A stretch of DNA of 36,237 bases from Clostridium sp. (lineage in GTDB: Bacteria > Bacillota > Clostridia > Clostridiales > Clostridiaceae): the NCBI GenBank assembly GCA_031292145.1, contig JARLHR010000087.1:1-36237 (forward strand). The letters run 5' to 3'. A program made the position numbers and the translations under genes. A model generated the notes under the pieces. The model was not told the origin of the DNA, did no database searches, and was given only the letters and a program-made list of their open reading frames with translations. This document shows, in pieces, positions 4,806-35,855 of this stretch (within the stretch, counting starts at the first letter, position 1; every line of letters begins with the position of its first letter).

Positions 4806-4968
4806 TTAGGCACATGAAAAAAAATAATAGACCAAAGATGCGGAGTATATTTTGTACCAGACAAGGAAGCAATTTAGCTCATAGCGGGCCTATTAGCTTA
4901 AATTGCTGACGCAGTATGGTGCAAAATAGACGAGCATACTGGTCTATTATTTTTTTGATTGTGCCTTA
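4806..4968 (+). repeat. Structured repeat, full copy A
   Basis: This is a 163-nt nested hairpin. The helices are: end stem TTAGGCACA/TGTGCCTTA; P2 AATAATAGACC/GGTCTATTATT (perfect); P3 TATTTTGTACCA/TGGTGCAAAATA; P4 AGCAATTTAGCT/AGCTTAAATTGCT. The apical segment CATAGCGGGCCTATTA is at 4880-4895 and can form a small ATAG/CTAT stem. Copy B at 35692-35855 has the same loop blocks (CAAGGAAG, the apical segment, TGACGCA) but different, still paired, stem sequences. As drawn, the TTAGGCAC end faces the protease gene at 2938-4785, 20 nt before its ATG, so the transcript of that gene would carry the complement of this element just before its ribosome site. Confidence 0.85.
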
Positions 4969-4976
4969 CATTAGAC

Positions 4977-5286
4977 ATATTAATAAACCTTAATATTGAC
5001 TTGTATTTTTAAATATGCCTTAATACTATATATATTTTTATACTATTTATTTGATGATTGAAATTGTAAATACCAAATTTTAATTACAGTATTAAAATTG
5101 TAATTTTACTTAGCCTGCATCAATAATAAATATTACGTTTATATATATGAAGAAATGTTCTGTACGCAAAAATCAGCTACTGAAATCTGCTGAATCAGTC
5201 CTCCGAATAAATCTTTTAGTGTGTTTTGCACTCTCAACCATATTACTGGCCTTAACAGATTGAATCCACTCATTCTTGGTACCCAC
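4977..5286. other. Intergenic stretch with two opposed short open frames
   Basis: No firm gene is visible. On the minus strand a 44-codon frame runs 5273 to 5139 (starts MSGFNLLRPVIWLRVQ) and begins close after the terminator at 5287-5326. On the plus strand a 38-codon frame runs 5147 to 5263 (basic N-terminus, hydrophobic C-terminus, ends STILLALTD). Neither has a ribosome site, and at most one could be real. They may be the remnant of a lost gene. A CATATTTA box on the minus strand at 5010-5017 resembles the -10 of mother-cell sporulation sigma factors, which would fit the Csp-like genes downstream, but the match is weak. Confidence 0.3.
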
Positions 5287-5326
5287 TAAAAAAAGATACA
5301 GTTAATATAATAACTGTATCTTTTTT
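5287..5326 (-). terminator. Rho-independent terminator after the laminarinase gene
   Basis: A perfect 10-bp stem (GATACAGTTA/TAACTGTATC) with a 6-nt loop is flanked by an A-run on the left and a T-run on the right. It can therefore work in both directions. It lies about 160 nt downstream of the stop at 5485. Confidence 0.85.
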
Positions 5327-5484
5327 CGTAATTCTATATAACTTTTTATATCCCACTCTTTGTTTATGGTGCATAAATTTGTTAACTTTGTTAAAGGCTC
5401 AATATCATTATTACTTGGCATTGATATTCCAAAGCATCTATTTTATATGATATATTTTCACTAATTATTGTTTTACGAGATTAC

Positions 5485-8400
5485 TTATTCTGCCTTAAGT
5501 GAAACATTATCAATATATACTTTTGTTAGTGCAGGGTTGCTTGTGTTACCAAAACAGAATTTTAGTTGAGCAACATCATCTTTAGGCATTGTGAATTCTA
5601 TAGTTACATGTTGTTTAGTAGGTGTAAGTGACACAGTTTTTGATGCATATGAATTATATGCAACATTTTCTTGGATCTCAGCCACTATATCTCTAGCGTC
5701 ATCAGACTTAGCATCAAATTCTAAAATATATTTAACACCATTCGATAAATTTATATCATTACTATATAACATTGCATCCCAAGGATTTGTACCTAATCCT
5801 GTAACATCAATAGCTGCTGCTTTATCTGCATCATCTGTTATACTAAAGGTTGCTGCAGCTGGAGTTGTAGCAAAATGTCCCCAATTTTCAAATTCAGAAG
5901 AAAAATCTCCATTGCTAATAAGATTATCATGACTTATAGTTCCTGCTGCTGCTTTTATAGTTTGACTTACTTTTGCATCATCAAAACCATTAGATTTTAC
6001 AACAATATTGTAATCACCTTTTTCAGTAAATATACTCTTATCTAATGTTATTGCACCGCCTGTTGTTGTATTATATGATCCTGCATCAATAGTCTTATCA
6101 TTAACAGTTATTCCTGTTATTGAATCTTTCCAGCCACTATCTCCACCTGCATAAGCAATATTAATATCATTTCCAATTGTATTATCTGTAGTATCCGGTA
6201 CTAATGTTGCTGGCATTTTAACTGGTGCATTCTTTACTCTAAGTGAAACATTATCAATATATACTTTTCCTAATGCAGGGCTACTTGTGTTACCCATACA
6301 GAATTTTAATTGTGCGGTATCATCTTTAGGCATTGTGAAATTCAATATTACATGCTGCTTATCAGGTTTAAGTGATAATGTTTTTGATGTATAAGAAGTA
6401 TAATTGGCATTTTCTTCAATTTTAGCCACTATATCTCTAGCTTGATCAGCCCAAGCATCAAATTCTAAAGTATAACTCACACCCTTTGATAATTTCATAT
6501 CATTACTATATAACATTACATTCCAATTTGAGTCACCTAATGCTTTAACATCAATAGCAGCTGCTTTATTTGCATCATCTGTTATACTAAAATCTGCTTT
6601 TGAAGCAGGAGTACCTTGGTTGTCCATAGTTTGCCAATAGTTATATCCTAAGCTAAAATCTCCATTTTTGATTGGATATAAATCAACACCATCATAATTT
6701 ACATTGTTATTTGTTGTTCTTATAAGTTGAATATCATGAATATAAACATCACCATCAGCATTACCCATTAAAAATTGTGTAATTGAATTTACATCAGTGG
6801 TTCCTTTTGGCATAGTAAATTCATAATCATATTCACTGTCTTCTGTTGTTAAATTAAATGTATTTTGTGCATATGTTGTTTGTCCATCTTTAGATGCAAA
6901 TCTTACATCCATTGGTCTATCTTTAGATGCACTTGCTTTAAATGTAAGCTTATAGACATCGCTTTGTAATAAATTAGTTCCTGATTGGGATAATATAACA
7001 CTATTTTTATCTCCTGCAACAGGTATTGTTATATCAGCTTCTTTTTTATCCTTATCGCTCTTAATTGTAGCGCCTTCACCTTTGAAGTCCCAGAATCCCA
7101 TTCCGTTATCTCCTAAATTAAAATCACCATTGTAAATATGATTACCGTTATCTAATGGTTCTTTTGCAGTGCTTGTATTATCTTCTACATCTGCATCAGA
7201 TTCTGTTACTTCTACATCATTAAGATTAATATTAACATCATCAGTTAATCCAAGATTGAATTCTAGTCTACCATGAACATTAGGTGTATCTTTCATTACA
7301 AATGAATATTCATATTCTTTTTCTTCATTTGTAAGATCTACTTTAAAAGCATCTGAATATTTAGTGTACCCCCTATCTGCACCACCACCAAATTGAGCTT
7401 GTACTGATGCATTCTTATCTGCTTTTGCTTTAAACTTTAATGTATATTTTTTATTAAGTCTTAAAGGAACATGGTCAACTAACTGAACTCCGTAGTTTAC
7501 AGTTCCGCCTTTTTTAATATCAATATCTAATCCATTATCGTTCGTAAATGTAGCTTGACCTCCACTTGCTGTAAGGAAATTCCAGTTATCAAAAGAAAGA
7601 TCGTCCGCATCAGTAGCTGCTATTTTTTTAAATGAAGGATCCAAAATATAACTTCCATTATCTAAAGGAGTTCTTGCCCCACTTAAAGGTCCATCATAAG
7701 TTGCAGGATCTGCATGTACTGGATATTGACCATTTAAATCATATACTCTTACATAATCTACTTTCATTTGTGCTGATTTAAATGATTCATCTGGTTCTAT
7801 ATTCCCATCATACGCTCCTCCCACTGCCATATTTAAAATAATGTGGAAATTCCTATCAAATGGCGCTGGATAAGCATATGGTGCTGGTTGATCATTACCT
7901 TGGCTAAACCAATTATTAGCTGTATAATATAGCTCTCCATCAACATACCATCTAATTTCCCCAGGTTCCCATTCTACTGAATAAATATGCTTACCTGTAA
8001 TATCTTTTCCTGCTGGGAATGTATAATGACCACCACTAGATGTGTTATTAGGCCATTCTTTACCAAAATGGATTGTTCCCCATACATTATTTAGTAATCT
8101 TCCTTTAGCCTCCATAATATCTATTTCGCCACCACTAGCCCATTTTCCATATATGTTATCATCATCTGGAAGCATCCAAAATGCAGGCCATAATCCATTC
8201 CCTGCTGGCATAGTAATAGCCGCCTCAATTTTTCCATAAGTTTTGCTAAACTTTCCTAATGTTCTAATTCTTGCTGACGAATATTTCTTTCCACCAAATT
8301 GATCTGGATTATCTTCTTTTCTTGCTTCTATTACAAGATTTCCATCTTCTACTTTTGTATTTTGATCAGTATAATATTCTTTTTCATTATTTCCCCAATC

Positions 8401-9222
8401 TACTGCACCATAGTCAGCACCATTTCCATATTGATAACTCCATTTGCTAGGATCTAAGCTAGTACCATTAAATTCATCACTCCATACTAAATTCCACTTA
8501 TTTTCTTCCCCATTACCATTCCCTGTGTTTGAGTTAGAATTTTCCGAAGTAGAGTTTCCTTGTGTGGAATTTCCTGATGAGGCATTTCCTTGAGAGGAAT
8601 TTCCACGAGAGGAGTTTCCTGACGATGATTTCTTTGATGAAGATTTATTTGATGAAGAATCACTTAATGTTGTGTTGCTTGGTATAGTCGCATTATTTGA
8701 TGGTTTATCAGGTGCTGCCTGCACACCAGCCCCTTTTTCGTCAAACAACTTAAGTGCCTTTGGTGTTTCTCCTATAGCATCTCCACTATTGCTGAAGTTG
8801 TATTCCTTATTATCTATCATAACTTTACCAGTCTGCATTGCTCCTGATGATGCAAGAGAATATACTTTTCCTTTAACTTCAATTATACCAGTTTGCATTG
8901 CTCCCGATGCATCTGAAAAGTACCATGTTCCTTTATCATTTATCCATCCTGTTTGCATTGCTCCTGATTCATCTGTATAGTACCAAGTCCCACCATCATT
9001 TATCCATCCTGTCCTCATTATTCCAGACTCGTCAAAATTATACCATATACCATCTATCATTTTCCAATTTGTAACGGTAGTTCCACTGTCGTCCACATAA
9101 CTCCAATCCCCATTTTCTGTTGACTGTTTCCATTCAGCAATTACTCCATTTGATATAATTGTCGGTATTATTCCCGCGGCAACTATCATGGATAAAACTT
9201 TTTTTAATTTAACTTTCTTCAT
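5485..9222 (-). CDS. Secreted modular GH16 endo-beta-1,3-glucanase (laminarinase-like)
   Basis: This is a 1245-residue exported enzyme. A signal peptide covers about residues 1-29. Five or six cell-wall-binding (CW/choline-type) repeats follow at about 30-150, with units like GTWYYTDESGAMQTGW. A Ser/Asn/Gly-rich linker spans about 165-240. The GH16 catalytic domain (about 245-500) has GGEIDIMEAKG near residue 365, holding both catalytic Glu; the laminarinase-type end reads MKVDYVRVYDL. Four CBM4/9-like beta-sandwich modules follow at about 515-685, 695-840, 850-1000 and 1095-1245, with a DUF1533/HIM-like module (about 1003-1090) before the last. It should cut beta-1,3-glucan outside the cell while held on the wall by the repeats. 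The start has an AGGGATGG site. A likely own promoter is at 9243-9271. Exact substrate (laminarin or mixed-linkage glucan) cannot be told from sequence. Confidence 0.92.
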   Translation of the reverse strand: MKKVKLKKVLSMIVAAGIIPTIISNGVIAEWKQSTENGDWSYVDDSGTTVTNWKMIDGIWYNFDESGIMRTGWINDGGTWYYTDESGAMQTGWINDKGTWYFSDASGAMQTGIIEVKGKVYSLASSGAMQTGKVMIDNKEYNFSNSGDAIGETPKALKLFDEKGAGVQAAPDKPSNNATIPSNTTLSDSSSNKSSSKKSSSGNSSRGNSSQGNASSGNSTQGNSTSENSNSNTGNGNGEENKWNLVWSDEFNGTSLDPSKWSYQYGNGADYGAVDWGNNEKEYYTDQNTKVEDGNLVIEARKEDNPDQFGGKKYSSARIRTLGKFSKTYGKIEAAITMPAGNGLWPAFWMLPDDDNIYGKWASGGEIDIMEAKGRLLNNVWGTIHFGKEWPNNTSSGGHYTFPAGKDITGKHIYSVEWEPGEIRWYVDGELYYTANNWFSQGNDQPAPYAYPAPFDRNFHIILNMAVGGAYDGNIEPDESFKSAQMKVDYVRVYDLNGQYPVHADPATYDGPLSGARTPLDNGSYILDPSFKKIAATDADDLSFDNWNFLTASGGQATFTNDNGLDIDIKKGGTVNYGVQLVDHVPLRLNKKYTLKFKAKADKNASVQAQFGGGADRGYTKYSDAFKVDLTNEEKEYEYSFVMKDTPNVHGRLEFNLGLTDDVNINLNDVEVTESDADVEDNTSTAKEPLDNGNHIYNGDFNLGDNGMGFWDFKGEGATIKSDKDKKEADITIPVAGDKNSVILSQSGTNLLQSDVYKLTFKASASKDRPMDVRFASKDGQTTYAQNTFNLTTEDSEYDYEFTMPKGTTDVNSITQFLMGNADGDVYIHDIQLIRTTNNNVNYDGVDLYPIKNGDFSLGYNYWQTMDNQGTPASKADFSITDDANKAAAIDVKALGDSNWNVMLYSNDMKLSKGVSYTLEFDAWADQARDIVAKIEENANYTSYTSKTLSLKPDKQHVILNFTMPKDDTAQLKFCMGNTSSPALGKVYIDNVSLRVKNAPVKMPATLVPDTTDNTIGNDINIAYAGGDSGWKDSITGITVNDKTIDAGSYNTTTGGAITLDKSIFTEKGDYNIVVKSNGFDDAKVSQTIKAAAGTISHDNLISNGDFSSEFENWGHFATTPAAATFSITDDADKAAAIDVTGLGTNPWDAMLYSNDINLSNGVKYILEFDAKSDDARDIVAEIQENVAYNSYASKTVSLTPTKQHVTIEFTMPKDDVAQLKFCFGNTSNPALTKVYIDNVSLKAE
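5494..6620 (-). repeat. Internal direct repeat coding for the third and last CBM modules
   Basis: DNA around 5494-5870 closely matches DNA around 6239-6600 within the laminarinase gene. Both start with a block encoding the phrase VYIDNVSL, and long stretches differ by single bases. The two encoded modules share FSITDDA.KAAAIDV, MLYSND, ARDIVA and MPKDD. The DUF1533/HIM-like module lies between them. The duplication is therefore more recent than the split from the first two CBM modules. Confidence 0.8.
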
Positions 9223-9242
9223 TTATAATAACCATCCCTTAT

Positions 9243-9271
9243 ACTATATTTTTTGCATTAATTATTTACAA
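9243..9271 (-). promoter_or_regulatory. Candidate sigma-A promoter for the laminarinase gene
   Basis: On the minus strand TTGTAA (9271-9266), a 17-nt spacer and TATAGT (9248-9243) precede the ATG at 9222. This is read by eye only. It would let the gene be transcribed apart from the phosphorylase upstream. Confidence 0.45.
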
Positions 9272-9318
9272 ATACATTTCACACATATATAAATCAAAAT
9301 CTTAACTAAATTTATGAT

Positions 9319-12021
9319 TTATTTAAGAATAACTTTTATTATATGTTGAATATTTTCATTCATTGAGGTTATCAATTTTCTCTCGATAACAAGCTGTCCA
9401 TAACCTCTATATTCTTCTCCATCAATATATATTTCACTTACTTTATACTCCCCATATTCTTTATTATCCTCATTAATATATTCAACTTTAAGTCGTCTTT
9501 CTGCAAAATTCATTTCAATAGAGGCCTTACCTTCATCATCAAACTGCCTTGCTAATATCTTAGGCTCAAATGCTAAATCCCCCATTTTGCCTTTTACCCC
9601 AAACATTTCAGATAGCACAGTTAATATTAACCAACTTGCTGCTCCAGTCAAATAATGATACATACCTCTTCCGTGTTCGTTTATATATTCAGGTACACCT
9701 GGATATATCCTACTAACATCAAAATTACTACAATGACTATAAAGTGTATCAATAACCTTAAATCCTTCGAATGCAAACCCTCTTTTATAAAGTGCATTTG
9801 CATACATAATTGCCATATGGCTAAATACTGCTCCATTTTCTTTGTGTCCATATGCAAATCCAAACATTCTTCCTAAATCTGTTTTTACTTCATTAAAATT
9901 AGTATTTAATCTATAACCACCAATGGATTTATCATAAAGATATTTACCAGCTGCTTTAATAATACTTTCAACTTGTTCTTCTGTGGCAGTATTACTCATA
10001 ACAGTAAAAACTTGTCCAGTAAGCATCATGCGAGTTCCTGATTCCCCATCTCCCTCAACTCTTCGCGCATTATTATCATAATAACCGTTATACCAGCTAT
10101 AGCCTTCCTTATTTGTTATCCATTCGTTCTTTTGAATGTGCTCTTTAAGCCATTTTGCTTTTTCTTCAATGTTAAGAATTAATTCATCGCAGCAGATACT
10201 AATCACTTGTCCACTAATACTATGTTCACATTTATTACAATAATTCTTTAATATATTTTGTTTTTTTTCTACGTTGTCATAAACTTCATTACCATCAGTT
10301 AAAAGTGTTTGTAATTCTTCAGCTAAGTCTATACTTTTTACTTTCTTCACATCTCTTAAGTACTTTAATAGCTCTGCAATGTCCGTAAGATTTCCAGCAT
10401 AAAGTGCACTAAAAGCAACACTTTCACCTTTCTCATCTGCCATGTCAAGTCCATCATTCCAGTCCGCACCGTGCAATTTTAAGTTGTTATGCTCCCCAAC
10501 ATCATAAAATGCTGTTAGATGTTGAACTAAAAGATGTTCCAAAATGGTTCCTTTATATTCCACTAGCTCCTGTGTACAGATTTTATTTCCCTGACTTAAA
10601 TCCCATAGATTATCCTTTTCTGTTCCTCTTCCAGCTTGAAGATCCTTGAAATAATTTTGCTTTTCTAAAAGGAAATCTATATCGCCAGTTTGCTCAATAT
10701 AAAGCTTTGTAGTTAAGAAAGGCCATGCTCCATGATCCATCCAAACACGAACTATATTATTTCTATCTGCTATAAATTCACCTTGTTTTGTTCCTATAAT
10801 AGTAGCATTAGTCCCATCTATACGAATACCACCAAAGTTATCTAATAACATTCCTCTAACATTGCTTGGATCCATTGCTAAAAGAGCTAAACAATCTTGC
10901 CATAAATCTCTCCAACCTCTTCCGCCTTTACCATAATCATGATGCGGTAAGAATGAACATCCATATATTCTTCTAAGCATTGGTTGGAAATTAACCCAAT
11001 GCATCCAATTATCAAATTGTCTGTCTTTTGTTTCATATGAAATATTTATTTTCTCATCCCAATATTCTTTAGTATCTTTAAGGAGATGCTCGAAAGCAGT
11101 TTCGTTTAAGTGATTACTAGCAATACTATCAAAATAAGCATTTGAATCTCCAAAACCTATTGCTACAATATAAGTTTTAGATTCATTGGCTTCAATTACT
11201 ACATCTTCAAAACGAATAGCTCCAACTGCTTCGTATCCTTCTAATTTTACATTGGCGTTAACCTTAAATTCTTCATTTAATAAAACACTCTTTGGAATCT
11301 CAAACGATCCGCCTTCTCCAATGTATTCCTCCACTATTGGACAAAAACTTACTGGCTTTTCGCCATCACCTGTTGCCGCTACAACGCCATATACAACAGT
11401 ATTTTTCTTATGTCCTCTTTCATCAAATGTCAATGTTGGATTTACTATAATTCCCTCCTCTGTTGTTTCTATTCTATTTAAAAGAGAAGTCACATGTCTA
11501 TGATCTCTAAGATTATCTGCTGAACGGCAATATAATGGTATTGCTACTGTTGGTGTTATCTTCTTTGCCTCATCTCCTATATTAGTAATTGTTACTTTCA
11601 TCAATTCTACTTGTTCATTATTAGATGGTACAAATGACACTATTTCACTTTGTATACCAAATTTCTTTGACTTTCTAGTAATCTTATGACACATTATACT
11701 TGCTTCTAATTCAGTTTCTTCTTTTTCTGCACTAAAAGTTTCTGCTTGTTGAGCTGCTGAAACTCCTGTAGCTGACCATGCACCTATGCCTTCAATATAT
11801 ACCCAAAAATTTCTTGAGGATTTATTATTATGAAGCTCTTCACTACTTACTGGTGCAAGTAAATATGTATTTTGACTCATTTTACAATCACCATTTAATG
11901 TTGGTGTTATGCTTGACATAACTCCAGCCTCATTTGCAAGTGGGAAATACATATAGCTATTATTTTCTGGATTTTTAAGCTTAAACATTCCTTTATTATT
12001 TACAAATTCGCAATTTGCCAT
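9319..12021 (-). CDS. GH94 phosphorylase, laminaribiose-phosphorylase-like
   Basis: This 900-residue cytoplasmic protein has no signal peptide. It belongs to GH94: inverting phosphorylases that split a beta-linked disaccharide with phosphate to alpha-glucose-1-phosphate plus a sugar. The catalytic Asp lies in HGADWNDGLD near residue 520. GGRGWRDLWQD, NFGGIRIDGTNATIIG and EFIADRNNIVRVWMDHG match the laminaribiose phosphorylase branch as I recall it, and the length fits that branch (about 900) better than cellobiose phosphorylase (about 810). I chose ATG 12021 because AGGTGG precedes it; an upstream in-frame ATG at 12084 would overlap the LacI gene and has no site. It lies 44 nt after the LacI gene and before the laminarinase, a context that supports beta-1,3 specificity. 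Cellobiose remains possible. Confidence 0.85.
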   Translation of the reverse strand: MANCEFVNNKGMFKLKNPENNSYMYFPLANEAGVMSSITPTLNGDCKMSQNTYLLAPVSSEELHNNKSSRNFWVYIEGIGAWSATGVSAAQQAETFSAEKEETELEASIMCHKITRKSKKFGIQSEIVSFVPSNNEQVELMKVTITNIGDEAKKITPTVAIPLYCRSADNLRDHRHVTSLLNRIETTEEGIIVNPTLTFDERGHKKNTVVYGVVAATGDGEKPVSFCPIVEEYIGEGGSFEIPKSVLLNEEFKVNANVKLEGYEAVGAIRFEDVVIEANESKTYIVAIGFGDSNAYFDSIASNHLNETAFEHLLKDTKEYWDEKINISYETKDRQFDNWMHWVNFQPMLRRIYGCSFLPHHDYGKGGRGWRDLWQDCLALLAMDPSNVRGMLLDNFGGIRIDGTNATIIGTKQGEFIADRNNIVRVWMDHGAWPFLTTKLYIEQTGDIDFLLEKQNYFKDLQAGRGTEKDNLWDLSQGNKICTQELVEYKGTILEHLLVQHLTAFYDVGEHNNLKLHGADWNDGLDMADEKGESVAFSALYAGNLTDIAELLKYLRDVKKVKSIDLAEELQTLLTDGNEVYDNVEKKQNILKNYCNKCEHSISGQVISICCDELILNIEEKAKWLKEHIQKNEWITNKEGYSWYNGYYDNNARRVEGDGESGTRMMLTGQVFTVMSNTATEEQVESIIKAAGKYLYDKSIGGYRLNTNFNEVKTDLGRMFGFAYGHKENGAVFSHMAIMYANALYKRGFAFEGFKVIDTLYSHCSNFDVSRIYPGVPEYINEHGRGMYHYLTGAASWLILTVLSEMFGVKGKMGDLAFEPKILARQFDDEGKASIEMNFAERRLKVEYINEDNKEYGEYKVSEIYIDGEEYRGYGQLVIERKLITSMNENIQHIIKVILK

Positions 12022-12065
12022 ACAACTAAAACCACCTTTACAATATTTTATTAAATATATTTTCA

Positions 12066-13082
12066 TTAATCTCTTTTCTTGCAAGAATCTCTTTTCATAA
12101 GCTCTACTGGTATAATTTTATTAATTTTTAGTTTAGCTTTTTCATTAATTTGCTTTACTAATAGATCAACTGCTGTTTTCCCAATTTCTTTACTATTTTG
12201 TCTTATAGTTGTTAATTTAGGTGTTATATATCGAGCCAACTCTATATCATCATATCCTATTATTGAAATATCCTCTGGCACACTTAAACCTTCCTCTTTC
12301 AATGCATCTATTGCACCAATTGCTATCTTATCTGCAGCTGCAAATACTGCTGTTGGTATTTCTTTAAGCTTTAGTAAATGCTTCATTGCAGTATAACCAC
12401 CACTAACATCAAAATTTACTCCATCTGCAACATATCCGTCAATTATCTCCAAATTAAATTTCTTCATAGCTTTTTCATAACCTTTTCTTCTTATTACACT
12501 TGCCCAGTTATCTGATTTACTCCCACCAGTTATATGTGCAATCTTTCTATGTCCTAAATCATATAAATACTTAATAGCCAAATAACAACCTTCTAAGTTA
12601 TCTGAAGTTACTGTTGCTATATTTTTATTAATCATGTCTATTACTACAATAGGAAAATCACTTTCTATAAGCTCTAAAGTTTCTTTATCCTTTGGATCCG
12701 TACAAATTATAGCGATTCCATCTACACATCTGTATTTAAAATATTCTAAAAAAGTATCATTCTTTAATCTATCATTTTTAGAACCAAATAATAATGAGTA
12801 TCCATGTTTATCTGCTTGTTTTTTAAAGGCTTCTATTACTCCTGAAAAGAAGGAATGACTAAGTCCGACTCCAAGATTTTCAAAATATACAATACCTAAT
12901 GTCCATGTTCTTTTAGTTGATAAAAATTGAGCTTGTGAATTTGGTAAAAAGTTTTTTTCATTGAGAATCTTTTGTATTCTAGCTCTAGTTTTATCACTTA
13001 CATCTGGATAATTATTTATTACTTTTGATACTGTAGTTGGAGATACTCCTGCGATTTTTGCTATTTCATAAATTGTGCTCAT
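12066..13082 (-). CDS. LacI-family transcriptional regulator
   Basis: This 338-residue repressor has an N-terminal LacI helix-turn-helix (TIYEIAKIAGVSPTTVSKVI, residues 3-22), a hinge helix region near 45-58, then a periplasmic-binding-like effector domain with the usual family phrases (TSDNLEGCYLAIKYL, ISIIGYDDIE). It should bind a palindromic operator and release it on a sugar effector. Its place between the lichenase and the phosphorylase suggests it controls this glucan locus. The best operator candidates are the two matching palindromes at 23986-24000 and 24049-24064. The ribosome site is GAAGGGAAG. It lies 78 nt downstream of the lichenase gene, so it may be cotranscribed. The effector is unknown; laminaribiose or another short beta-glucan is a guess. 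Confidence 0.9.
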   Translation of the reverse strand: MSTIYEIAKIAGVSPTTVSKVINNYPDVSDKTRARIQKILNEKNFLPNSQAQFLSTKRTWTLGIVYFENLGVGLSHSFFSGVIEAFKKQADKHGYSLLFGSKNDRLKNDTFLEYFKYRCVDGIAIICTDPKDKETLELIESDFPIVVIDMINKNIATVTSDNLEGCYLAIKYLYDLGHRKIAHITGGSKSDNWASVIRRKGYEKAMKKFNLEIIDGYVADGVNFDVSGGYTAMKHLLKLKEIPTAVFAAADKIAIGAIDALKEEGLSVPEDISIIGYDDIELARYITPKLTTIRQNSKEIGKTAVDLLVKQINEKAKLKINKIIPVELMKRDSCKKRD

Positions 13083-13160
13083 CTTTTCATAACTTCCCTT
13101 CTAATACATAAATCTTTTTACTTATTACCTCCGCTACAGGATAAATGAATCTAAATATTA

Positions 13161-13901: not shown

Positions 13902-14000
13902 ACATTTTCCTCCTTGAATTAAATAATTTATTAAAATCATAATTGATTTTATGCATCTTATTATTCAATTTGTATTCACTAATGCAAAATATAGATCACT

Positions 14001-14135: not shown

Positions 14136-14147
14136 CTAAATTTCACT

Positions 14148-27750: not shown

Positions 27751-27771
27751 TTAAGCAGCTCCTATTTCAAT

Positions 27772-29397
27772 TCATCTGACTACATTTAGCTTCTTCTTAT
27801 TTTCTTCATATTTTTGCTGGATATATTCTTGTATCTTATCCCAATCGTGCTCCTTTCTATATGTGATAAATTCATTTAATATTCCATTAAACTCATTCTC
27901 ATCCTTAGCTATAAGTAGATTCTTCAAAGTACTTCCCCATTTGGCATTTATTTTAGAGAAAGCCACTCCTTCCTCGCTGTCTCCATAGGGATAAATGTTA
28001 TCATATAAGGAATAATTATAGGTCTTTCCCCTTGTCCAGTCACTTATTATATTTATTGCTTCCGCACTAGCCGGCGTCCACTTCTGTATTAAATCTCCAT
28101 CCGCTAACATCCAATAAGTGTTTGCTGCACCATATTTATTGTCAAAAGCTATTCTATCCTTATTTAGCAAATCTACTATTTCGGGTTTAAATTGTTCCTT
28201 TCCATCAATTACATCCCAAGTTGAGCCTTTTATTCCTAAATACAAATCTCTATTTCCCTCCTCACTAATTAAATAACTTAAAAAACTTATAGCTCTCTTT
28301 GGATCTTTGCATGTTTTTGAAATTAGCGTAACTGTCCATCCTGAAATACTGTCTCCAGCTAGTTTAGGTTGGTCTCCCTTAGAGTTTGAAGGTCCATCAA
28401 TTGCCATATATATTTTATTTTTATCTTTAGAATATAATTCCAGTTGCTGAGCAGACATATCAGAACTTTGATAAAGCATTGCAAAATATCTTCCTTCTGT
28501 AATATTTTCTTCTATCTGAGCTCTTTTATCTACAAAGATTTCCTTCGATAACAACCCTTTCTCATTAGCAGTTCTTAATGTTTTTAACCATCTTATGTAT
28601 TCTTTATCTATAATTTTATCATATACCTTACCATTTTCTTCTCTAGGAATCGCTAAAAAACTTGGTAAAATACTATCCAATGAAAGATTTCCTGTTTCAT
28701 TAAACTCATGAAATCCTAATGGTATCAATTCTTGACCATCAATTATTGGAAATTGTTTCTTTGCTCTTTCAAGTGCATCCAAAAACGCCTCTGGTGTACT
28801 CATATCTGGCTTGCCTAAAGCTTCATAAATATCTTTTCTAACTAAAAATGTTTGATTAGATGGCTTTTCTTCCTTATAGTCCTTAAAGTCAGTCACTGGA
28901 CTTGAAAAATTAGGATAGCAATAAACATGTCCATCACTTTGCCTATACCAGTCTAATTTTTGTTTATCTGCCACTTTAATAAAGTATGTATCGTATTGTT
29001 CTGATAATTTGTCAAGTGGTAGTGCTAAACCGCTTTGTATAACTCTTTTATAGCCATCATCTTGAGAACTTAATGTAATAAAATCCGGCAATTTGCCTGT
29101 TTCAATCATAGAATTTAATTTTTCGGTTTCATCACCGCTTGGAGTTATTAAATTTAAGCTAACACCAGTCTTTTCAGTAACATATTTCGAAACAGGATTA
29201 GTCCCCCATTTAGTTTGAAACCACGAAAAGTCAATATACCAATCAAATGTTATGGGTGTTGTATCCGCCTTCCACCCTTCTTCACTATATTTATTATTAA
29301 TTGTAGTATCTATTTTTTTATCAGATAGACTACACGCTGTAAAAACTACAATTAAAGTTATAATGCCTATACAAACCTTTACAACTTTCCTTTTCAT
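27772..29397 (-). CDS. Extracellular solute-binding lipoprotein of the sensing cassette
   Basis: This 541-residue lipoprotein has a signal peptide with lipobox VFTAC (Cys22). It is a family-1 solute-binding protein of the large LplA/LipO type (about 500-560 residues). Phrases include TPITFDWYIDFSWFQTKWG near residue 50 and WTPASAEAINIISDWTRG near residue 450. It is the first gene of a set with a YesM-type kinase and a YesN-type regulator and has no permease of its own, so it more likely acts as a ligand-presenting sensor subunit than as a transporter part. That role is inference. AGGGGG precedes the ATG. A candidate promoter is at 29427-29456. Confidence 0.88.
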   Translation of the reverse strand: MKRKVVKVCIGIITLIVVFTACSLSDKKIDTTINNKYSEEGWKADTTPITFDWYIDFSWFQTKWGTNPVSKYVTEKTGVSLNLITPSGDETEKLNSMIETGKLPDFITLSSQDDGYKRVIQSGLALPLDKLSEQYDTYFIKVADKQKLDWYRQSDGHVYCYPNFSSPVTDFKDYKEEKPSNQTFLVRKDIYEALGKPDMSTPEAFLDALERAKKQFPIIDGQELIPLGFHEFNETGNLSLDSILPSFLAIPREENGKVYDKIIDKEYIRWLKTLRTANEKGLLSKEIFVDKRAQIEENITEGRYFAMLYQSSDMSAQQLELYSKDKNKIYMAIDGPSNSKGDQPKLAGDSISGWTVTLISKTCKDPKRAISFLSYLISEEGNRDLYLGIKGSTWDVIDGKEQFKPEIVDLLNKDRIAFDNKYGAANTYWMLADGDLIQKWTPASAEAINIISDWTRGKTYNYSLYDNIYPYGDSEEGVAFSKINAKWGSTLKNLLIAKDENEFNGILNEFITYRKEHDWDKIQEYIQQKYEENKKKLNVVR

Positions 29398-29426
29398 AAG
29401 TAATCCCCCTTAAGACTAAAAACCTT

Positions 29427-29456
29427 CTTATATTTAGCACAAATACTTTTATGCAA
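29427..29456 (-). promoter_or_regulatory. Candidate sigma-A promoter of the sensing cassette
   Basis: On the minus strand TTGCAT (29456-29451), an 18-nt spacer and TATAAG (29432-29427) lie about 30 nt before the ATG at 29397. An alternative -35, TTGATA, lies further upstream. Read by eye only. Confidence 0.4.
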
Positions 29457-29591
29457 TTAATAGGCTAAGTATCAATTATGTTTTCATTGTATTTAGAATG
29501 TTGCAGGTAATTCTGGAAAACTTCTAGATATTAATGAGAAATTAATACCTACTTTTCTATAATTTATATAAGTTTGCAAACAACAGTAAAA

Positions 29592-29738
29592 ATTGATAAC
29601 AATAGTTTAGCATATAGTAAATGGAACTGTAAATACCACATAGTATTCGTGCCAAAACCTCCTCAACGAGTGATACAAAATGGAACAAAGTACAGAATCA
29701 CATTGAAGTTGTTATGTTTGAGCAATTGCTCTCAGTAA
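29592..29738 (+). pseudogene. IS200-type transposase tnpA, 5' remnant (plus strand)
   Basis: The frame reads IDNNSLAYSKWNCKYHIVFV then PK, the unmistakable N-terminus of IS200/IS605 TnpA (Y1 transposases, usual length about 130-150 residues). The start ATG has become ATT. The frame continues with decaying similarity (RVI..., KLLCLSNC) to a TAA at 29736-29738. The catalytic HUH motif and Tyr region are absent. It points toward the alarmone synthetase gene and mirrors the remnant at 31508-31657. Confidence 0.85.
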
Positions 29739-29862
29739 ACATTTATTAAGAAAAATTGATAAACACATAGTTTTTATTTAAGAGAATATCAATAATTTAA
29801 TAAATTTACAAAATATAAATGCTTTAGAAGTGTATGAAAATACAATAGAAATTACAGCTGAG

Positions 29863-29962
29863 AATATTTTACACTAGGTCAAGAACCATAACCCGCGCAT
29901 AGCGATCTATGTAAAGATTGTGGTGATGAAGCATAGCACAAAATAGACCAGAATCTGACTGG
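29863..29962 (+). repeat. Structured repeat, degenerate copy D
   Basis: This copy keeps TATTTTACACTA paired with TAGCACAAAATA (the P3 helix), GGTCAAGAA in place of the CAAGGAAG block, CATAGCG from the apical loop and CAAAATAGAC. It lacks the TTAGGCAC end stem and most of the outer helix. The similarity is clear in order and spacing but partial, so it is probably an eroded copy. Confidence 0.5.
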
Positions 29963-30105
29963 TTATCTTTTCAAAGATATCGCAAAAGGGAACCTTTTAC
30001 AATTTCAAAATACATGACTTGAGAAATGAAACTTTAGCTCATCTTGTAATAAGGAAGAACATTGGAAGAATTGCGTAAAGATAAGATTAATAATAAAAAT
30101 GTATA

Positions 30106-30246
30106 TTATATTAATCCAGTAGCTGTAGTTCCTGTATTAATATAATCTAATAATACTTGAAGTGGTTTCAGCGTTTGATTGATTTTTCTATTTCCTGTTC
30201 CATAGAAACCAGGCATCTCATATCCAGTTACGAAACCGAAGAAAAT
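30106..30246 (-). pseudogene. Unidentified coding remnant
   Basis: A 46-codon minus-strand frame with no start reads like real protein: GYEMPGFYGTGNRKINQTLK, then PLQVLLDYINTGTTATGLI and TAA at 30106-30108. An in-frame TAG at 30247-30249 closes it on the 5' side. I do not recognise the family. It may be the 3' end of a gene lost from this island. Confidence 0.3.
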
Positions 30247-30574
30247 CTAGGCAGACAGTTTCACAAATTTAAGTTAAAGCATTGTAACTCTATATACACT
30301 CATGTAAACTTCTATCTTTTTTCTATTCGTAATTTATTATTGCTTTAACATGTATTTTCAGAAAAAATGCCGTACACTAAAATCAAAGGCATAAATTTCT
30401 TAAATCTCTCATTTTACTATGTTCCAGCACTTTTATACATACAACTAATAATGAAAAAAATACTTTTATATATTTCAATTCTTTTTTACCCTAGTACTTA
30501 ATCATCTATGGTTTAAATTACGCATTGAATTAGTGTTAATTGTCTCAATTCTCTGAATTACCTTATTTCTGTTT

Positions 30575-31471
30575 TTATACTTTTGTGATTCTACTATCAT
30601 GGTATATATTTGATTTAGGAAATTTCTTTTCTAAACAAGCAATTTTATTTTTTAATTTTTCTTTATCTGCAGATTCTATTTCTAACTTATCTATGGTACT
30701 TCTTAATTCATCAATAATTTTATTTTTCTCTTCTAATTCTTTGCAATGACTCTCATTTATATTATTCAATTCATTATGTAGATAATTAACATAAGATCCC
30801 ATTTCATCCGCACTTCCAGAAAGTCTATTAAATATAACTAAGAAATTGGCTAGGATAGTGTTATCAATGTCATACGGATACCTAATCTTATGATCAATTT
30901 CACTCCATCCTTCCTCAAATATTGTTCTAACTTGTATTTCTGAAACAAATGTTTTCTTGCCATAATTTACCTTGATGAGGTAATGAACTGATCTGTATCC
31001 AAATGGATGTTCTACTATTTTACAACCTTTTGCTTTAAAACTATCAATTAAATTTCCTGAATCTCCTTTTCTGATATTTGCCTTTGGTTTTTCCGCAGCA
31101 GGCCATGTGTTAATTACATATTCATGAATATTCTCCCAATCTTCTTTGAAAAGATGTAGTACTCGTATTCCTATTAAATCAGTAACTTTTTTAGTATAAT
31201 TTTTCAGAGTTATAGTTATATTGGGTTTACTTAATTTTTTTCTTATTATTTTTTCTATAAGATGTTCTGGATCTTTAACTCTATGATTAATCGAATGAAC
31301 AGCTTCAACTTTTTTTAATAAATTTCCTACAAAATTAGCTATTACTTCAAGCTCTTGAATTCTTGATTGAAAGTCAGTATAAATTTCCATTAAATCATCC
31401 CACTCAAGATTAGTTTTATTAAAATCTTCTTCAGAAATATTGTACTTTTTAAAAAAAGTTAACTTGTCCAT
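30575..31471 (-). CDS. Stand-alone RelA/SpoT-domain (p)ppGpp synthetase-like protein with coiled coil
   Basis: This 298-residue protein has a RelA/SpoT synthetase domain at about 40-225: VTDLIGIRVL (metal-binding Asp), PFGYRSVHYLIKV (the Tyr that stacks on the GDP/GTP base) and EIQVRTIFEEGWSEIDHKIR. There is no HD hydrolase domain and no TGS/ACT region, so it is a small-alarmone-synthetase type that would move pyrophosphate from ATP to GDP/GTP or, as in toxic SAS enzymes, to tRNA or adenosine. Residues about 235-290 form a charged coiled coil (CKELEEKNKIIDELRSTIDK), longer than in RelP/RelQ. I chose ATG 31471, preceded by GGAGGG; a TTG start 24 nt upstream would run into the tnpA remnant. No antitoxin gene is visible. 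The gene lies between two inverted tnpA remnants. Confidence 0.88.
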   Translation of the reverse strand: MDKLTFFKKYNISEEDFNKTNLEWDDLMEIYTDFQSRIQELEVIANFVGNLLKKVEAVHSINHRVKDPEHLIEKIIRKKLSKPNITITLKNYTKKVTDLIGIRVLHLFKEDWENIHEYVINTWPAAEKPKANIRKGDSGNLIDSFKAKGCKIVEHPFGYRSVHYLIKVNYGKKTFVSEIQVRTIFEEGWSEIDHKIRYPYDIDNTILANFLVIFNRLSGSADEMGSYVNYLHNELNNINESHCKELEEKNKIIDELRSTIDKLEIESADKEKLKNKIACLEKKFPKSNIYHDSRITKV

Positions 31472-31507
31472 CCTTTTCCCTCCATATGCTACCAATTCTT
31501 TTCTAAT

Positions 31508-31657
31508 TTATCCATCCTTATTATGACATAATTTTCTTAGTATTACTTCTATGTCTATTTTTATCCTTTTATAAATTACTTATCTTCTATACTTTGCCAC
31601 AAATACTATATGATATTTACAATTCCATTTACTACGTACTAAACTGCTATTGTCCAT
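31508..31657 (-). pseudogene. IS200-type transposase tnpA, 5' remnant (minus strand)
   Basis: The frame starts with a normal ATG at 31657 and reads MDNSSLVRSKWNCKYHIVFV then AKYRR, the TnpA N-terminus. An in-frame TAA at 31580-31582 replaces the expected Lys. The frame then resumes as VIYKRIKIDIEVILRKLC before a TAA at 31508-31510. The rest of the transposase, including the HUH motif and catalytic Tyr, is gone. Its truncation point lies about 36 nt upstream of the alarmone synthetase ATG, in the same reading frame. Together with the plus-strand remnant at 29592 it forms an inverted pair around that gene. Confidence 0.88.
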
Positions 31658-31753
31658 TTCGGAGATGCCTTATTGTATTTAGTTGAGATTCACAAACCTA
31701 CTACTATTTTGCAATTTAGATATTCTTTCTTATATTTATATCTAAAAACCTTT

Positions 31754-31784
31754 AAAAACCACAGGCCTAACCTGTGGTTTTTTA
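31754..31784 (-). terminator. Rho-independent terminator after kdpE
   Basis: AACCACAGG pairs with CCTGTGGTT around a 5-nt loop, with an A-run before and a T-run after, so it can stop transcription from either side. It lies 45 nt downstream of the kdpE stop. Confidence 0.88.
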
Positions 31785-31828
31785 AATACAACAACCTAAT
31801 CTTTTGGCTAATAAATTTATTTATATAC

Positions 31829-32527
31829 TTAATCTTCCACTAATCTATACCCTACTCCAACTTCTGTATAAATATATTGCGGCTCAGCTGGATTCTTTTC
31901 TATTTTTCTTCTAAGGCTTGCCATGAACACTCTGAGGGATTGAGTTTCACTCCCCGTTGGCGAACTCCAAATTTTCTGAATTATAAACTTATGAGTTAAC
32001 ACCTTTCCTGAATACTTACAAAGAAGGACCATTATTTTATATTCTATAGGAGTTAAATGTATGTCTTCATTATCTATTGTTACTTTTCTTTTATTAAAAT
32101 CAACAACTAAATCCTTAACTTTAAAAATACCTTCATTCTCTTTTTCCTTATTAGTTGCTATACTATGCCTTAATGACACTCTAACCCTAGCTAATAATTC
32201 GCCAATTCCAAAAGGTTTAGTTAAGTAATCATCTGCACCTTTATCTAAAGCTTCTATTTTCTGCCTTTCATTTTCTCTTGCAGAAACAATTATTATTGGA
32301 ACTTTAGACCATTCTCTTACTTTTGTAACTACATTAATTCCATCCATATCTGGAAGTCCCAAATCAAGTATTATTAGATCTGGCTTATGTGACATTGAAA
32401 GTGCAATTGCTTCTGTTCCTTTATCTGTTTCTATATAATTAAATCCTTGTGCTTTTAAAGATGTTGTTATAAAATTTCTTATCGGCTTATCATCTTCCAC
32501 AACAAGTATATATTGTTTACTGTCCAT
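31829..32527 (-). CDS. kdpE: Potassium-responsive response regulator KdpE
   Basis: This 232-residue OmpR-family regulator has a receiver domain at about 5-120 with VVEDDKP, the phospho-acceptor Asp in IILDLGLPDMDG (about residue 55) and YLTKPF. A winged-helix DNA-binding domain follows at about 130-230, with LTPIEYKIMVLLCKYSGKVL and the closing YIYTEVGVGYRLVE. It acts with KdpD to induce the KdpFABC potassium pump. I chose ATG 32527, which has AGGAGGGG upstream and overlaps the 3' end of kdpD by 11 nt (translational coupling). An upstream in-frame ATG at 32620 lies deep inside kdpD and is not credible. Confidence 0.95.
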   Translation of the reverse strand: MDSKQYILVVEDDKPIRNFITTSLKAQGFNYIETDKGTEAIALSMSHKPDLIILDLGLPDMDGINVVTKVREWSKVPIIIVSARENERQKIEALDKGADDYLTKPFGIGELLARVRVSLRHSIATNKEKENEGIFKVKDLVVDFNKRKVTIDNEDIHLTPIEYKIMVLLCKYSGKVLTHKFIIQKIWSSPTGSETQSLRVFMASLRRKIEKNPAEPQYIYTEVGVGYRLVED

Positions 32528-35234
32528 CACTATTCCCCTCCTTTGGAATATTAAATCTAAAAATAGCTCCTCCTCTATTATCTCTGTTATAAGCACTAAT
32601 TGTTCCTCCATGTGCTTCAACTATAGATTTACAGATTGCAAGACCTAACCCAACTCCTCTTCTTGAATCAGATATTTTATCTCCATTAGTAAAAAATCTA
32701 TCAAATATGTGTGGTAATATATCTTCTGATATTCCCATACCATTATCAATTACTTCAAAAATGATATTTTTTTCATTTTCATAAACTTTAACTTCAATCA
32801 AAGAGCCTTTAGGAGTAAACTTAACGGCATTGTCAAATAGATTTATGATTACTTGTTCAACCAAACTTCCATCCATAGGAGCCATTATGACATCTTCTGG
32901 AACTGTTACTTTTATTTCATGCTCTTTAAATCGTTTTAAAGTTCTTTGAACTGCCTCATATACGACTTCTTCAACAAGCTCCATATCCTTTTTAATTTTC
33001 ATATTTCCACCATCAAATCTTGTCATACTAAGCAGGTTTTCTACTAATCTTATAAGCCATTCAGTATCATCATAAACACTTTGAAGTAATTCTCCCCTAG
33101 TTTCTTCAGATATAAGATTCCCTGTTTCAATAATAGTACTTACAGATCCTTTAATACCTGCAAGGGGACTCCTTAAATCATGAGAAATCGATCTTAATAA
33201 GTTACTTCTAAGTCTTTCGCTTTCAATTTCTAAATTAGATTTCTTTTGAGTTTCAGCTAAAATTTCTCTATCTAGCGCAATATAGATTTGACTAGCAACT
33301 GTTTCAAATATATATTTTTGTTCAGGTTTTAATGCCCCATTAATACATGAAATACCCAATACCCCTAATATTTTCCCATGACTTTTTAAAGGCATGTAGT
33401 ATCCTTTTGCACCATGAAATGTATTAGTGCCTGCTCCAGATTCCTTATCATTTAAAAATGTCCAATAAGCAACAGCTTCTTCATCTTTATTAAGTAAAGT
33501 TCTGTCTTTTTCTCCCTTAGTAGCTGTATATATGAATGGAGTTGAAAGTTTATTATCTTGATCTAAATAGCAAACAACAGTTCTCTCCAATAATCTTGAT
33601 AGATATTTTATTCCTATTCCAACAACATCTGCAGTACCTGTTGCACTTAATAATTTTTTACTTACTCGATATAAATTTCGAGTTCTACTTTCTCTTTGTG
33701 AAGAATTACGAGCTTCTCTTTGTATTTTATTTGTGAGTGTACCAATTGTAAAAGTTACTATTAACATTATAGGAAATGTTGCCAAATAACTTTTATCATA
33801 GACCTCTAATGAATACCTTGGGTCTGTAAAAAGATAATTAAATAAAAATATACTTATAATTGAACAAACAAACCCTAAAATGTATCCTCTTGTTTTAATA
33901 TTTACAATAATAACACCTAATATAAAAATCATAATAACATTAGCAGTATTAAAACCTAAATAATCAATAAATAATGAAATTATTGTAGTAATTATCATTA
34001 TTAAAGTAGATACTAAAATTTCTTTGCTTGATACATTAAACTTTTGTCTATTATTTTTTATACTATATTTTTTCTGTTTATCAGAGGCTGCATTGGGTAT
34101 AACGTAAACATCTATATACGAATTAGATTCCATGAGTTTATCAACTATATCTTTTGCATAAAAATGAAATAAATTATTGGGCTTCTTATGATTTTTACCT
34201 ATAATAATTTTTGTTGCGTTTCTAAATTTTGCATATTGGATTATTTGTTCAATAGTATTATCACCATATGCTGTTACTACTTCTCCTCCTAATTGCTCTG
34301 CTAAACTAAAATGAGAATTTAGCCTTTCCCTATCTTCCTTGCTTAAATTTTGAGATTTGGTTGTTTCAACATAAAATGCTATCCATTTTGAATGATGAGC
34401 TTCGGCCATTCTTGTTGCTGTCCTTATAACTCTGGAAGATGAAGGTGATGGAGAAATGCATGCAAGCACCACATCTGATGTTGGCATTACAGTTATCTGA
34501 CCTTTTGATAATCTTACACTTTCAACTTCATAATTCACTCTATCTGCCGTTCTTCTTAATGCAATTTCTCTAAGAGCAAATAAATTATTTTTAGCAAAAA
34601 AATTATTGAAAGCATTTTTAGTCTGTTCCTTGCTATAAACTTTTCCTTCACTAAACCTATTAAGAAGTTCAGTTGGTTCAATATCAACTAATTCTACTTT
34701 ATCAGCTTCATCAAATACCTTATCTGGAATTGTTTCTCTTACAGCAATATGAGTTATACTTTCAACTATATCATTTAAGCTTTCAATATGCTGAACATTT
34801 AAAGTTGTATAAACATCTATTCCAGCCTCTAAAAGTTCCTCTATATCCTGCCATCTTTTTCTATGTCTTTTAGTACTAGCATTGGTATGAGCAAGTTCAT
34901 CTACTAATATTATCTCCGGTTTTCTAGCAAGGGCTTTATCTAAATCAAATTCTTTTAAGGTTATTCCTTTATAATTAATAATCTTAACACCTATATCTTC
35001 AATTCCACTTACTAAAGCCATAGTTTCTGGCCTTGCATGAGGTTCTATATAACCAATTACTATATCTTTACCTAATCTCTTCATGTCATGTGCTTCCATA
35101 AGCATAGTATAACTTTTCCCTACCCCTGCTGCATAACCAAAAAATATTTTTAATTTTCCTCTTGTAGATTCATGCTCTTCTTTTTTTATTTGATTTAAAA
35201 GATAATCTGGATTGGGTCTTTTTTCAATATCTAT
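32517..35234 (-). CDS. kdpD: Sensor histidine kinase KdpD, apparent ATA start
   Basis: This is an osmosensitive potassium sensor kinase. Counted from the ATA codon at 35234-35232 it has 905 residues, near the family norm. Order: N-terminal KdpD domain beginning DIEKRPNPDYLLNQIKKEEH with Walker A GYAAGVGKSYT (34-43) and Walker B-like EIILVDELAHTN; a UspA-like domain (about 250-380); four transmembrane helices (about 400-490); a GAF domain; a HisKA domain with SISHDLRSPLAGIKGS (His near 685); and an HATPase domain with DNAVKFTPKG and GVGLGLAICKSIVEAHGG. The first in-frame ATG (35105) falls inside Walker A. AAGGAG lies 8 nt before the ATA, directly after an in-frame TAA, so initiation at ATA (or a mutated ATG) is the best reading. 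Translation from 35105 would give an 862-residue protein without the P-loop. Confidence 0.9.
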   Translation of the reverse strand: MDIEKRPNPDYLLNQIKKEEHESTRGKLKIFFGYAAGVGKSYTMLMEAHDMKRLGKDIVIGYIEPHARPETMALVSGIEDIGVKIINYKGITLKEFDLDKALARKPEIILVDELAHTNASTKRHRKRWQDIEELLEAGIDVYTTLNVQHIESLNDIVESITHIAVRETIPDKVFDEADKVELVDIEPTELLNRFSEGKVYSKEQTKNAFNNFFAKNNLFALREIALRRTADRVNYEVESVRLSKGQITVMPTSDVVLACISPSPSSSRVIRTATRMAEAHHSKWIAFYVETTKSQNLSKEDRERLNSHFSLAEQLGGEVVTAYGDNTIEQIIQYAKFRNATKIIIGKNHKKPNNLFHFYAKDIVDKLMESNSYIDVYVIPNAASDKQKKYSIKNNRQKFNVSSKEILVSTLIMIITTIISLFIDYLGFNTANVIMIFILGVIIVNIKTRGYILGFVCSIISIFLFNYLFTDPRYSLEVYDKSYLATFPIMLIVTFTIGTLTNKIQREARNSSQRESRTRNLYRVSKKLLSATGTADVVGIGIKYLSRLLERTVVCYLDQDNKLSTPFIYTATKGEKDRTLLNKDEEAVAYWTFLNDKESGAGTNTFHGAKGYYMPLKSHGKILGVLGISCINGALKPEQKYIFETVASQIYIALDREILAETQKKSNLEIESERLRSNLLRSISHDLRSPLAGIKGSVSTIIETGNLISEETRGELLQSVYDDTEWLIRLVENLLSMTRFDGGNMKIKKDMELVEEVVYEAVQRTLKRFKEHEIKVTVPEDVIMAPMDGSLVEQVIINLFDNAVKFTPKGSLIEVKVYENEKNIIFEVIDNGMGISEDILPHIFDRFFTNGDKISDSRRGVGLGLAICKSIVEAHGGTISAYNRDNRGGAIFRFNIPKEGNSDGQ

Positions 35235-35332
35235 TTAAATCACTCCTTACTCTCACGTAATTCTGCCTTATATTGGTTAAAATTATATATCTGTATACAT
35301 TATTATAAAAGTAGTATATTTCTTAATTTGTA

Positions 35333-35677
35333 CTACCCCTCTTTTGAATAAATCCACTCTTTCCCATCTACTGAACAATTATAAAATTCTATGCTACTTC
35401 CTTTGACTTTTCCTTTTAAACTTTGAACCCTAAAATAATTCTCTTCATTATTCTCAAAAGTTATTTCTATTTCATTATCATTTATAGAGTATTTCCCATA
35501 AGTATAAAATACATCTTTATATAGGTTGTTTATAATTGTGCAATTACCATTTGAACTAAGTTCTAAAATAGTATTATCGGAAGATTTATATCTTCCGATA
35601 TATGGATCATTGCTACAACCTACTATAAAAATACTACCCATTATAAAAACTAGAAATATAGAAAGCATCTTTTTCAT
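35333..35677 (-). CDS. Small predicted lipoprotein between kdpC and kdpD
   Basis: This 114-residue protein has a signal peptide MKKMLSIFLVFIMGSIFIVG followed directly by the lipobox Cys (IVGC, Cys21). The mature part is short and beta-rich (YIGRYKSSDN, YGKYSINDNEIEITF), like a small lipocalin-like or domain-of-unknown-function barrel. I do not recognise the family. The start at 35677 has GAGGGGA 8 nt upstream; extending the frame further upstream would run through the structured repeat and is not credible. Repeat copy B ends 14 nt before this ATG. It lies inside the kdp cluster in the same orientation, so a role in potassium or osmotic sensing is possible, but nothing in the sequence proves it. 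Confidence 0.75.
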   Translation of the reverse strand: MKKMLSIFLVFIMGSIFIVGCSNDPYIGRYKSSDNTILELSSNGNCTIINNLYKDVFYTYGKYSINDNEIEITFENNEENYFRVQSLKGKVKGSSIEFYNCSVDGKEWIYSKEG

Positions 35678-35691
35678 AACAAATCCCCTCA

Positions 35692-35855
35692 TTAGGCACA
35701 TGCAAATAAATAACAAGTCCAAAGTTGCCATGGATATTTTCATCAGGCAAGGAAGTAAAATGCCATCATAGCGGGCCTATTATGGTATTTTGCTGACGCA
35801 TGATGATGGAAAATAGGCTGGCAAATGGACTTGTTATTTTTTTGAATGTGCCTTA
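35692..35855 (+). repeat. Structured repeat, full copy B
   Basis: This 164-nt nested hairpin has the same plan as copy A. End stem TTAGGCACA/TGTGCCTTA; P2 AATAACAAGTCC/GGACTTGTTATT (perfect); P3 TATTTTCATCA/TGATGGAAAATA (one bulge); P4 GTAAAATGCCA/TGGTATTTTGC. The apical segment at 35767-35782 is identical to that of copy A, as are CAAGGAAG and TGACGCA. P2, part of P3 and all of P4 differ in sequence from copy A yet still pair. It fills most of the 213-nt gap between the kdpC stop and the lipoprotein ATG. Confidence 0.85.

Follow-up and report, generated by a model that had tools for sequence, protein, structure and literature searches.

The window, by which we mean the whole 36,237-nt stretch of Clostridium sp. 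DNA that was analysed, carries two full copies (A and B), one half copy and one eroded copy of a dispersed, non-coding element of ~165 bp with inverted ends. A and B, like their kin, belong to the MITE type of non-autonomous transposable element. A core of ~83 nt within them recurs in many families of Bacillota (the phylum was taken from the named kin), in which the outer stems and transposon ends differ. The recurring fold with its differing ends suggests that the folded strand has a role of its own. The best-supported reading is that the interior of the element would function, with a presumed partner, as a single strand that folds, and most likely as RNA. We assign a probability of about 0.55 to the reading as a whole, in which a MITE-type element would use an IS5/PIF-type transposase in trans and its core would act as a factor-bound RNA. 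The features in the window are as follows:

4806..4968, plus strand: copy A, complete, with a target duplication at each end (R1, 171.4 bits; R2, 171.3 bits)
4806..4808, strand not applicable: target duplication TTA, left of A
4966..4968, strand not applicable: target duplication TTA, right of A
4848..4930, plus strand: folded conserved core of A (R3, 76.4 bits, E 1e-16; not independent, A being among the R3 training sequences)
35692..35855, plus strand: copy B, complete, with a target duplication at each end (R1, 176.8 bits)
35692..35694, strand not applicable: target duplication TTA, left of B
35853..35855, strand not applicable: target duplication TTA, right of B
35735..35817, plus strand: folded conserved core of B (R3, 65.1 bits, E 7.8e-14; likewise not independent, B being in the training set)
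1152..1215, minus strand: half copy, confined to the 5' half (81% identical to A over 64 nt by blastn, E 8e-13)
29824..29984, plus strand: eroded copy (R1, 33.8 bits, E 7e-6; R2, 57.3 bits, E 7e-10)

Copies, target duplications and neighbouring genes

The coordinates, ends and paired P2 and P4 arms of A and B are all as the original prediction gave them. The half and eroded copies, for which it gave no coordinates, were located at 1152-1215 (minus) and 29824-29984 (plus). Its description as a structured repeat stands; the mobile nature, with TTA/TAA duplications, was missed, and the conservation of the apical loop was over-read. The loops are indeed identical between A and B, but across 138 copies the apical CGGGC columns vary, with 6 to 21 changes each, a rate similar to that of the other unpaired columns (mean 10.4), and the apical loop sequence varies from genus to genus. 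The half copy matches the first 64 nt of A. In the eroded copy, which was left out of every model's alignment, the core (29865-29947; R3, E 1.9e-12) is better kept than the ends. The loop block CATAGCGGGCCTATTA occurs twice in the window with at most 3 mismatches, against 0.12 expected.

A genome-wide search found many copies, not few, in line with the predicted family. In the own genome (6.34 Mb, 282 contigs), 150 of 8038 candidates were scored with the covariance model and all 150 matched, which gives at least 150 matches. The loop block was found there at 166 places with at most 2 mismatches, and the reversed control gave 0. Some draft contigs end within element copies (C67, C69, C154, C167, C174, C211 and C237 of the own genome, and L315), so the element breaks assemblies. 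Searches of plasmid and phage collections with B gave no match, and a scan of viral contigs for one core pattern gave 0.

The flanks were examined in 150 distinct copies, 108 from the own genome and 42 from relatives, of which 146 are at least 150 nt long. Identical flanking triplets were present in 123 of these 146 copies (TTA 62, TAA 60, CTA 1); one copy is discordant (TTA/TAA) and the remainder are near misses or eroded. In genomes of other genera, 26 of 30 copies had identical triplets. TTA and TAA are one site read on two strands, and their nearly equal counts fit random orientation. The flanks form a direct repeat, whereas pairing of the ends would predict TTA opposite TAA; they are therefore target duplications. 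The site of B is empty in two relatives, with 47 nt (G007) and 28 nt (G023) between the matched stretches against 211 and 191 nt in the window, this being a single site at which the short intergenic alignment is imprecise. Elements of IS200/IS605 or REP type are not known to make a target duplication, and this identity was rejected on the clear direct duplication in 123 of 146 copies. A three-base TWA (TNA) duplication is made by Tourist-type MITEs of PIF/Harbinger and by the bacterial IS5/IS1031 subgroup. For PIF, the 3-bp duplication is given in an excerpt of PMC2213677.

Of 132 copies compared with the frames of a simple frame caller, 3 extend into a long one. The neighbours of B are a gene resembling kdpC and one for a small lipoprotein-like product, both named from translations alone. 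Both A and B lie directly upstream of minus-strand gene starts and are antisense to those genes. This position, together with the strong structure, would be expected of a cis-regulatory RNA of adjacent genes (riboswitch, leader or terminator). Among the 132 copies whose neighbours were mapped, orientation to genes is nevertheless random, with 43 sense, 50 antisense, 21 convergent and 18 divergent (sense versus antisense, p 0.53), and this disfavours a cis-regulator. At A and B, scans for promoters and terminators were at or below chance, there is no terminator-like site at either copy, and target duplications are present. We consider cis-regulation very improbable.

Several further observations were made on the copies and the window. 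In some copies the stem holds, at fixed points, additional hairpin modules of ~40-80 nt (L026, L031, L033, L035, L038, L039, L048, L049, L055, L184, L188-L190, L192 and L194); a module is shared between subfamilies and is found in both arms at mirrored positions. Derivatives shortened to 61-85 nt retain the ends and lack the core (L116:4768-4828, L037:2862-2936, L083:2084-2156, L125:3979-4047, L274 and L275). Their lengths all differ, which suggests separate deletions after insertion. Between 5485 and 24000 the window holds what looks, from the translations, like a locus for beta-glucan use, with putative genes for a glucanase, phosphorylases, a glucosidase, a sugar transporter and regulators; the gene at 5485-9222 contains a 287-nt repeat that is 82% identical.

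Folding, covariation and the strand probably under selection

On the plus strand, A folds at -71.7 kcal/mol (z -11.6 against dinucleotide shuffles) and B at -73.2 kcal/mol (z -9.5), and 0 of 200 shuffles was as good in either case. The minus strands are less stable (-63.6 and -63.4 kcal/mol), and on either strand both copies lie 8.5 to 11.6 standard deviations below shuffles. RNAalifold applied to 35 own-genome copies gave 55 pairs, 24 of them with compensatory changes. Among 36 diverse copies, compensatory changes occur in 34 of 52 pairs and 94.9% of cells are paired, with 251 double-change cells where shuffles give 69.5 and slid controls 28-38; the outer helix, where the terminal inverted repeats are present, is 98.8% paired. 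The core-only alignment A9 (49 sequences) behaves in the same way: compensatory changes are seen in 20 of 22 pairs, 87.9% of cells are paired, and double-change cells number 268, where shuffles give 84 and slid controls no more than 100. A point against the reading of a folded single strand is that unpaired columns change faster overall than paired ones (10.4 versus 5.8 events per column over 138 copies). It had been claimed that the stem changes preserve pairing, and the 34 of 52 compensatory pairs and the 251 cells against 69.5 bear this out. The proposed selection on folded RNA or single-stranded DNA is likewise supported, by this covariation and by the excess of G.U over A.C described below.

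The original prediction recognised no known riboswitch, tmRNA or published motif, and in line with this no Rfam family lies on the element at threshold. With Rfam 15 at the gathering threshold, the window gave 0 matches, and 11 plus 20 further loci gave only three, all outside the element. A permissive comparison of B returned four unrelated sub-threshold families that we took as chance (best E 0.34); the best of them was STnc150, with 15.6 bits against a cut-off of 60.

In a tree of 138 copies, Watson-Crick pairs changed to G.U in 150 events and to A.C in 67, and reversions to Watson-Crick numbered 71 from G.U and 6 from A.C. On internal branches the ratio of G.U to A.C events was 32:8 (32:6 in the IQ-TREE tree), and on terminal branches 118:59 (125:64). 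The excess is thus found on terminal branches also, and the contrast between source lineages and tips in this ratio is weak (p 0.13 and 0.03 in the two trees). Other breaks of pairs numbered 11 on internal and 97 on terminal branches (15 and 95 in the second tree), over total branch lengths of 2.5 and 6.5 (2.9 and 7.8). Few breaks internally and many terminally indicate that source lineages keep the fold and that inserted copies decay. Counted as alignment cells, G.U exceeds A.C by 138:19 (A7), 98:11 (A9) and 39:5 (phylum set), in consensus structures that were derived on the plus strand and so favour G.U columns; without columns of at least 30% G.U, the counts are 76:17, 74:11 and 30:5, respectively. 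Departures to wobble pairs are mostly G.U on one strand, and it therefore seems that one defined strand, the plus strand of A and B, is selected to fold.

Two other influences on this excess were considered. C>T and G>A changes are balanced at paired sites (117:121), and at unpaired sites G>A is the more frequent (66:110), so mutational strand bias is not the explanation. An effect of host transcription was not significant: the bias is weaker in antisense copies (42:24) than in sense copies (29:9), at p 0.20, and the lack of a significant difference counts against the one-strand reading.

The paired changes could also come from an ordinary MITE, without any RNA, in which the arms copy each other by template switching in replication and the ends suit one transposase. 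Such copying fits the 97 double changes from one Watson-Crick pair to another that fall on single branches, the mirrored hairpin module in both arms (by eye, for example in L033), and ends that co-vary, such as GGCACATG/TGTGCC and GGCATCTG/AGATGCC. Symmetric template switching is not expected to produce an excess of G.U over A.C on one strand, and it should erase an asymmetric internal loop, yet the loop of the core is kept phylum-wide. An ordinary MITE explains part of the paired changes but does not account for the G.U asymmetry or for the persistence of the asymmetric loop; as the full account it is unlikely.

The folded strand could instead be single-stranded DNA, a transposase or host factor recognising the one-strand hairpin during replication, as happens in other single-strand systems. 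G.T pairs better than A.C in DNA too, so that the asymmetry is compatible with this reading, and the asymmetry occurs without an orientation preference to genes. In the closed genome G012, 33 of 41 among the copies listed share one orientation to the presumed replication direction, with the origin assumed at coordinate 1. No such bias was seen among the copies listed for G022 (10 of 20) and G029 (7 of 14), and a 3-bp direct duplication misfits transposition of IS200/IS605 type. We hold single-stranded DNA to be rather unlikely.

A core that outlives its ends

Matches to model R1 were found in 23 of 68 genomes of the genus and, across the family, in 81 of 206 genomes from 21 of 46 genera, which leaves 45 and 125 sampled genomes without the element. 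R2 matched 36 of 391 genomes of the class (24 of 222 genera), with 355 genomes lacking the element; many of these matches are weak (E 1e-3 to 1e-5) and many cover only the core (positions 33-134). The core model R3 matched, often in multiple copies, 23 of 398 genomes of the phylum (20 of 267 genera), and 375 genomes had none. All 30 genomes picked from the positives, which represent 18 other genera, had matches, from 2 to at least 96 each, with 96 candidates scored per genome. Named carriers are C. chromiireducens, C. uliginosum, C. puniceum, Clostridium sp. LS and two metagenome assemblies. One genome of another genus of the family, G149, has 2 matches only (L108 and L245), one of them nearly the own-genus consensus (196 bits); a recent transfer and a misplaced contig are candidate readings of this copy.

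The core consists of GACAAGGAA, an apical ATA[G/C]T and TGACGCAGTAT. Most of the elements retrieved at the level of the class and phylum have in common GACAAGGAA or ACAAGGCGG, the apical sequence ATA[C/G]T...[G/C]TAT, and TGACGCAGTAT or ACAACGCAGTAT. Their outer stems differ: GGCAYNTGAAA, TACTAATCC, GGAACAACT and GGGGCTATC occur with TTA or TAA alongside, TGCCCTGTCAACC or TACTCTGT with CTAG, and GGGCGTGTCT with TA or CTAG. A scripted search for duplications at 78 matches gave TTA/TAA in 15, CTAG in 8, none in 25 and other short repeats in 30, the last of which may be due to chance. CTAG is its own reverse complement and may therefore belong to the ends and not to a duplication.

In A9 the apical pair is C-G in 32 sequences, G-C in 15 and A-U in 2. 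The arms beside the apical helix are mostly 5'-GGAA and 5'-TGAC and form an asymmetric internal loop. Columns 23.75 and 24.74 hold G.A and A.G in 35 of 49 sequences; the others have G.A with C.A (6), G.A with G.A (4) or other combinations (4). Tandem G.A pairs are typical of folded RNA and are found in DNA too. The unpaired bases A16, C19, A21, G77, A79, G80 and A82 are near-invariant (44 to 49 of 49). In L314, L320 and L321, paired cores lie inverted, 7-15 nt apart, followed by a short motif like GAGATTCGACTCC that by eye resembles a tRNA T arm.

According to the reading we prefer, an IS5/PIF-type transposase supplied in trans would recognise the ends and duplicate TWA. The core would act as RNA, made upon transcription of the plus strand, and its internal loop (5'-GGAA/5'-TGAC with tandem G.A, plus ACAA and GCAGTAT) would be bound by a conserved host or helper factor. 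Binding of this factor would be needed for the element to spread or to be tolerated, and copies would decay after insertion. A wider claim is put forward tentatively, and we think it somewhat less probable than not: the core may be a mobile structured RNA, or a folded single-stranded DNA, of a new class found across Bacillota and residing in MITEs of several transposase specificities, with the ends exchanged and the core, more than the ends, making the elements succeed.

MITEs are usually viewed as passive pairs of ends with a drifting interior. Here the interior is the most lasting part, with a one-strand fold and a conserved asymmetric loop kept across families while the ends change. By its features the element is a bacterial MITE, and an exchange of ends around one folded core across the phylum is the bold reading. 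The lasting interior raises the testable question of whether a non-autonomous element is helped to spread, or to be tolerated, by its RNA or its folded strand. With the covariance models, as many as 150 or more copies in a genome could also be annotated.

Related elements and candidate helpers

As judged from excerpted descriptions, the closest analogue in size, number and structure is bcr1. The host of the MITE Chunjie, Geobacter uraniireducens, belongs to another phylum. Chunjie, compared by description in an excerpt, is a many-copy MITE of 178-235 bp with direct repeats and one copy in an operon (PMC10969869). The bcr1-bcr3 elements of the Bacillus cereus group are MITE-like, with tens to 130 copies and a predicted common structure, and are partly transcribed; they are linked to a TTTAT motif and are set apart from our element by description and not by sequence (excerpts of PMC6542083 and PMC3446304). 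Bcr1 is 147 or 167 bp long (excerpt of PMC2267715) and is reportedly confined to that group (excerpt of PMC6542083), whereas the present hosts are Clostridium. Clop-1 (93 bp, C. perfringens), Clot-1 (74 bp, C. tetani) and Efa-1 (163 bp, E. faecalis), again compared by description, are repeated stem-loop families of low-GC Firmicutes, two of them clostridial (excerpt of PMC2267715).

The bacterial MITEs Correia/NEMIS, ERIC, RUP, RPE, CIR and YPAL were reviewed by Delihas in 2007 (PMC2229807). Like our element, as given in excerpts of that review, they are ~100-200 bp long, protein-free and A+T-rich, have mostly inverted ends and a target duplication, and lie mainly between genes; their transcripts form long stem loops, as a transcript of ours would. 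They mostly end in a TA motif, whereas the present element has a TTA/TAA duplication, and the excerpts describe no folded core shared among elements with different ends (PMC2229807). A literature search gave no description that we recognised as this element, and the core may sit unnamed among the 3161 candidate RNAs in the supplements of PMC8040213.

The TWA duplication of IS5/PIF-type elements is matched here, and the search, which covered two transposase families in part of the genomes, found no such transposase with matching ends. PF13359 gave 0 matches in the own genome, and none of 36 fetched PF01609 loci had GGCAC ends with equal triplets. A scan of 1.34 Mb of loci for long pairs flanked by TWA gave 9, with no convincing helper. 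Those in L183, L015, L116 and L031 each join the ends of two separate copies, and the genes enclosed in the L116 interval are ordinary by their translations. In L146 a copy is linked across an ordinary gene to an isolated end-like site, L222 is a PF01609 insertion sequence with different ends, and the pairs in L111, L102 and L002 appear to be due to chance. Another PF01609 insertion sequence, L203:1045-1923 in G007, has the ends GGGCGTGTCTGAAAACAA beside TA. These ends closely resemble those of core elements in G941 and G902 (L337 and L341), and an insertion sequence of this type is a possible helper for that subgroup.
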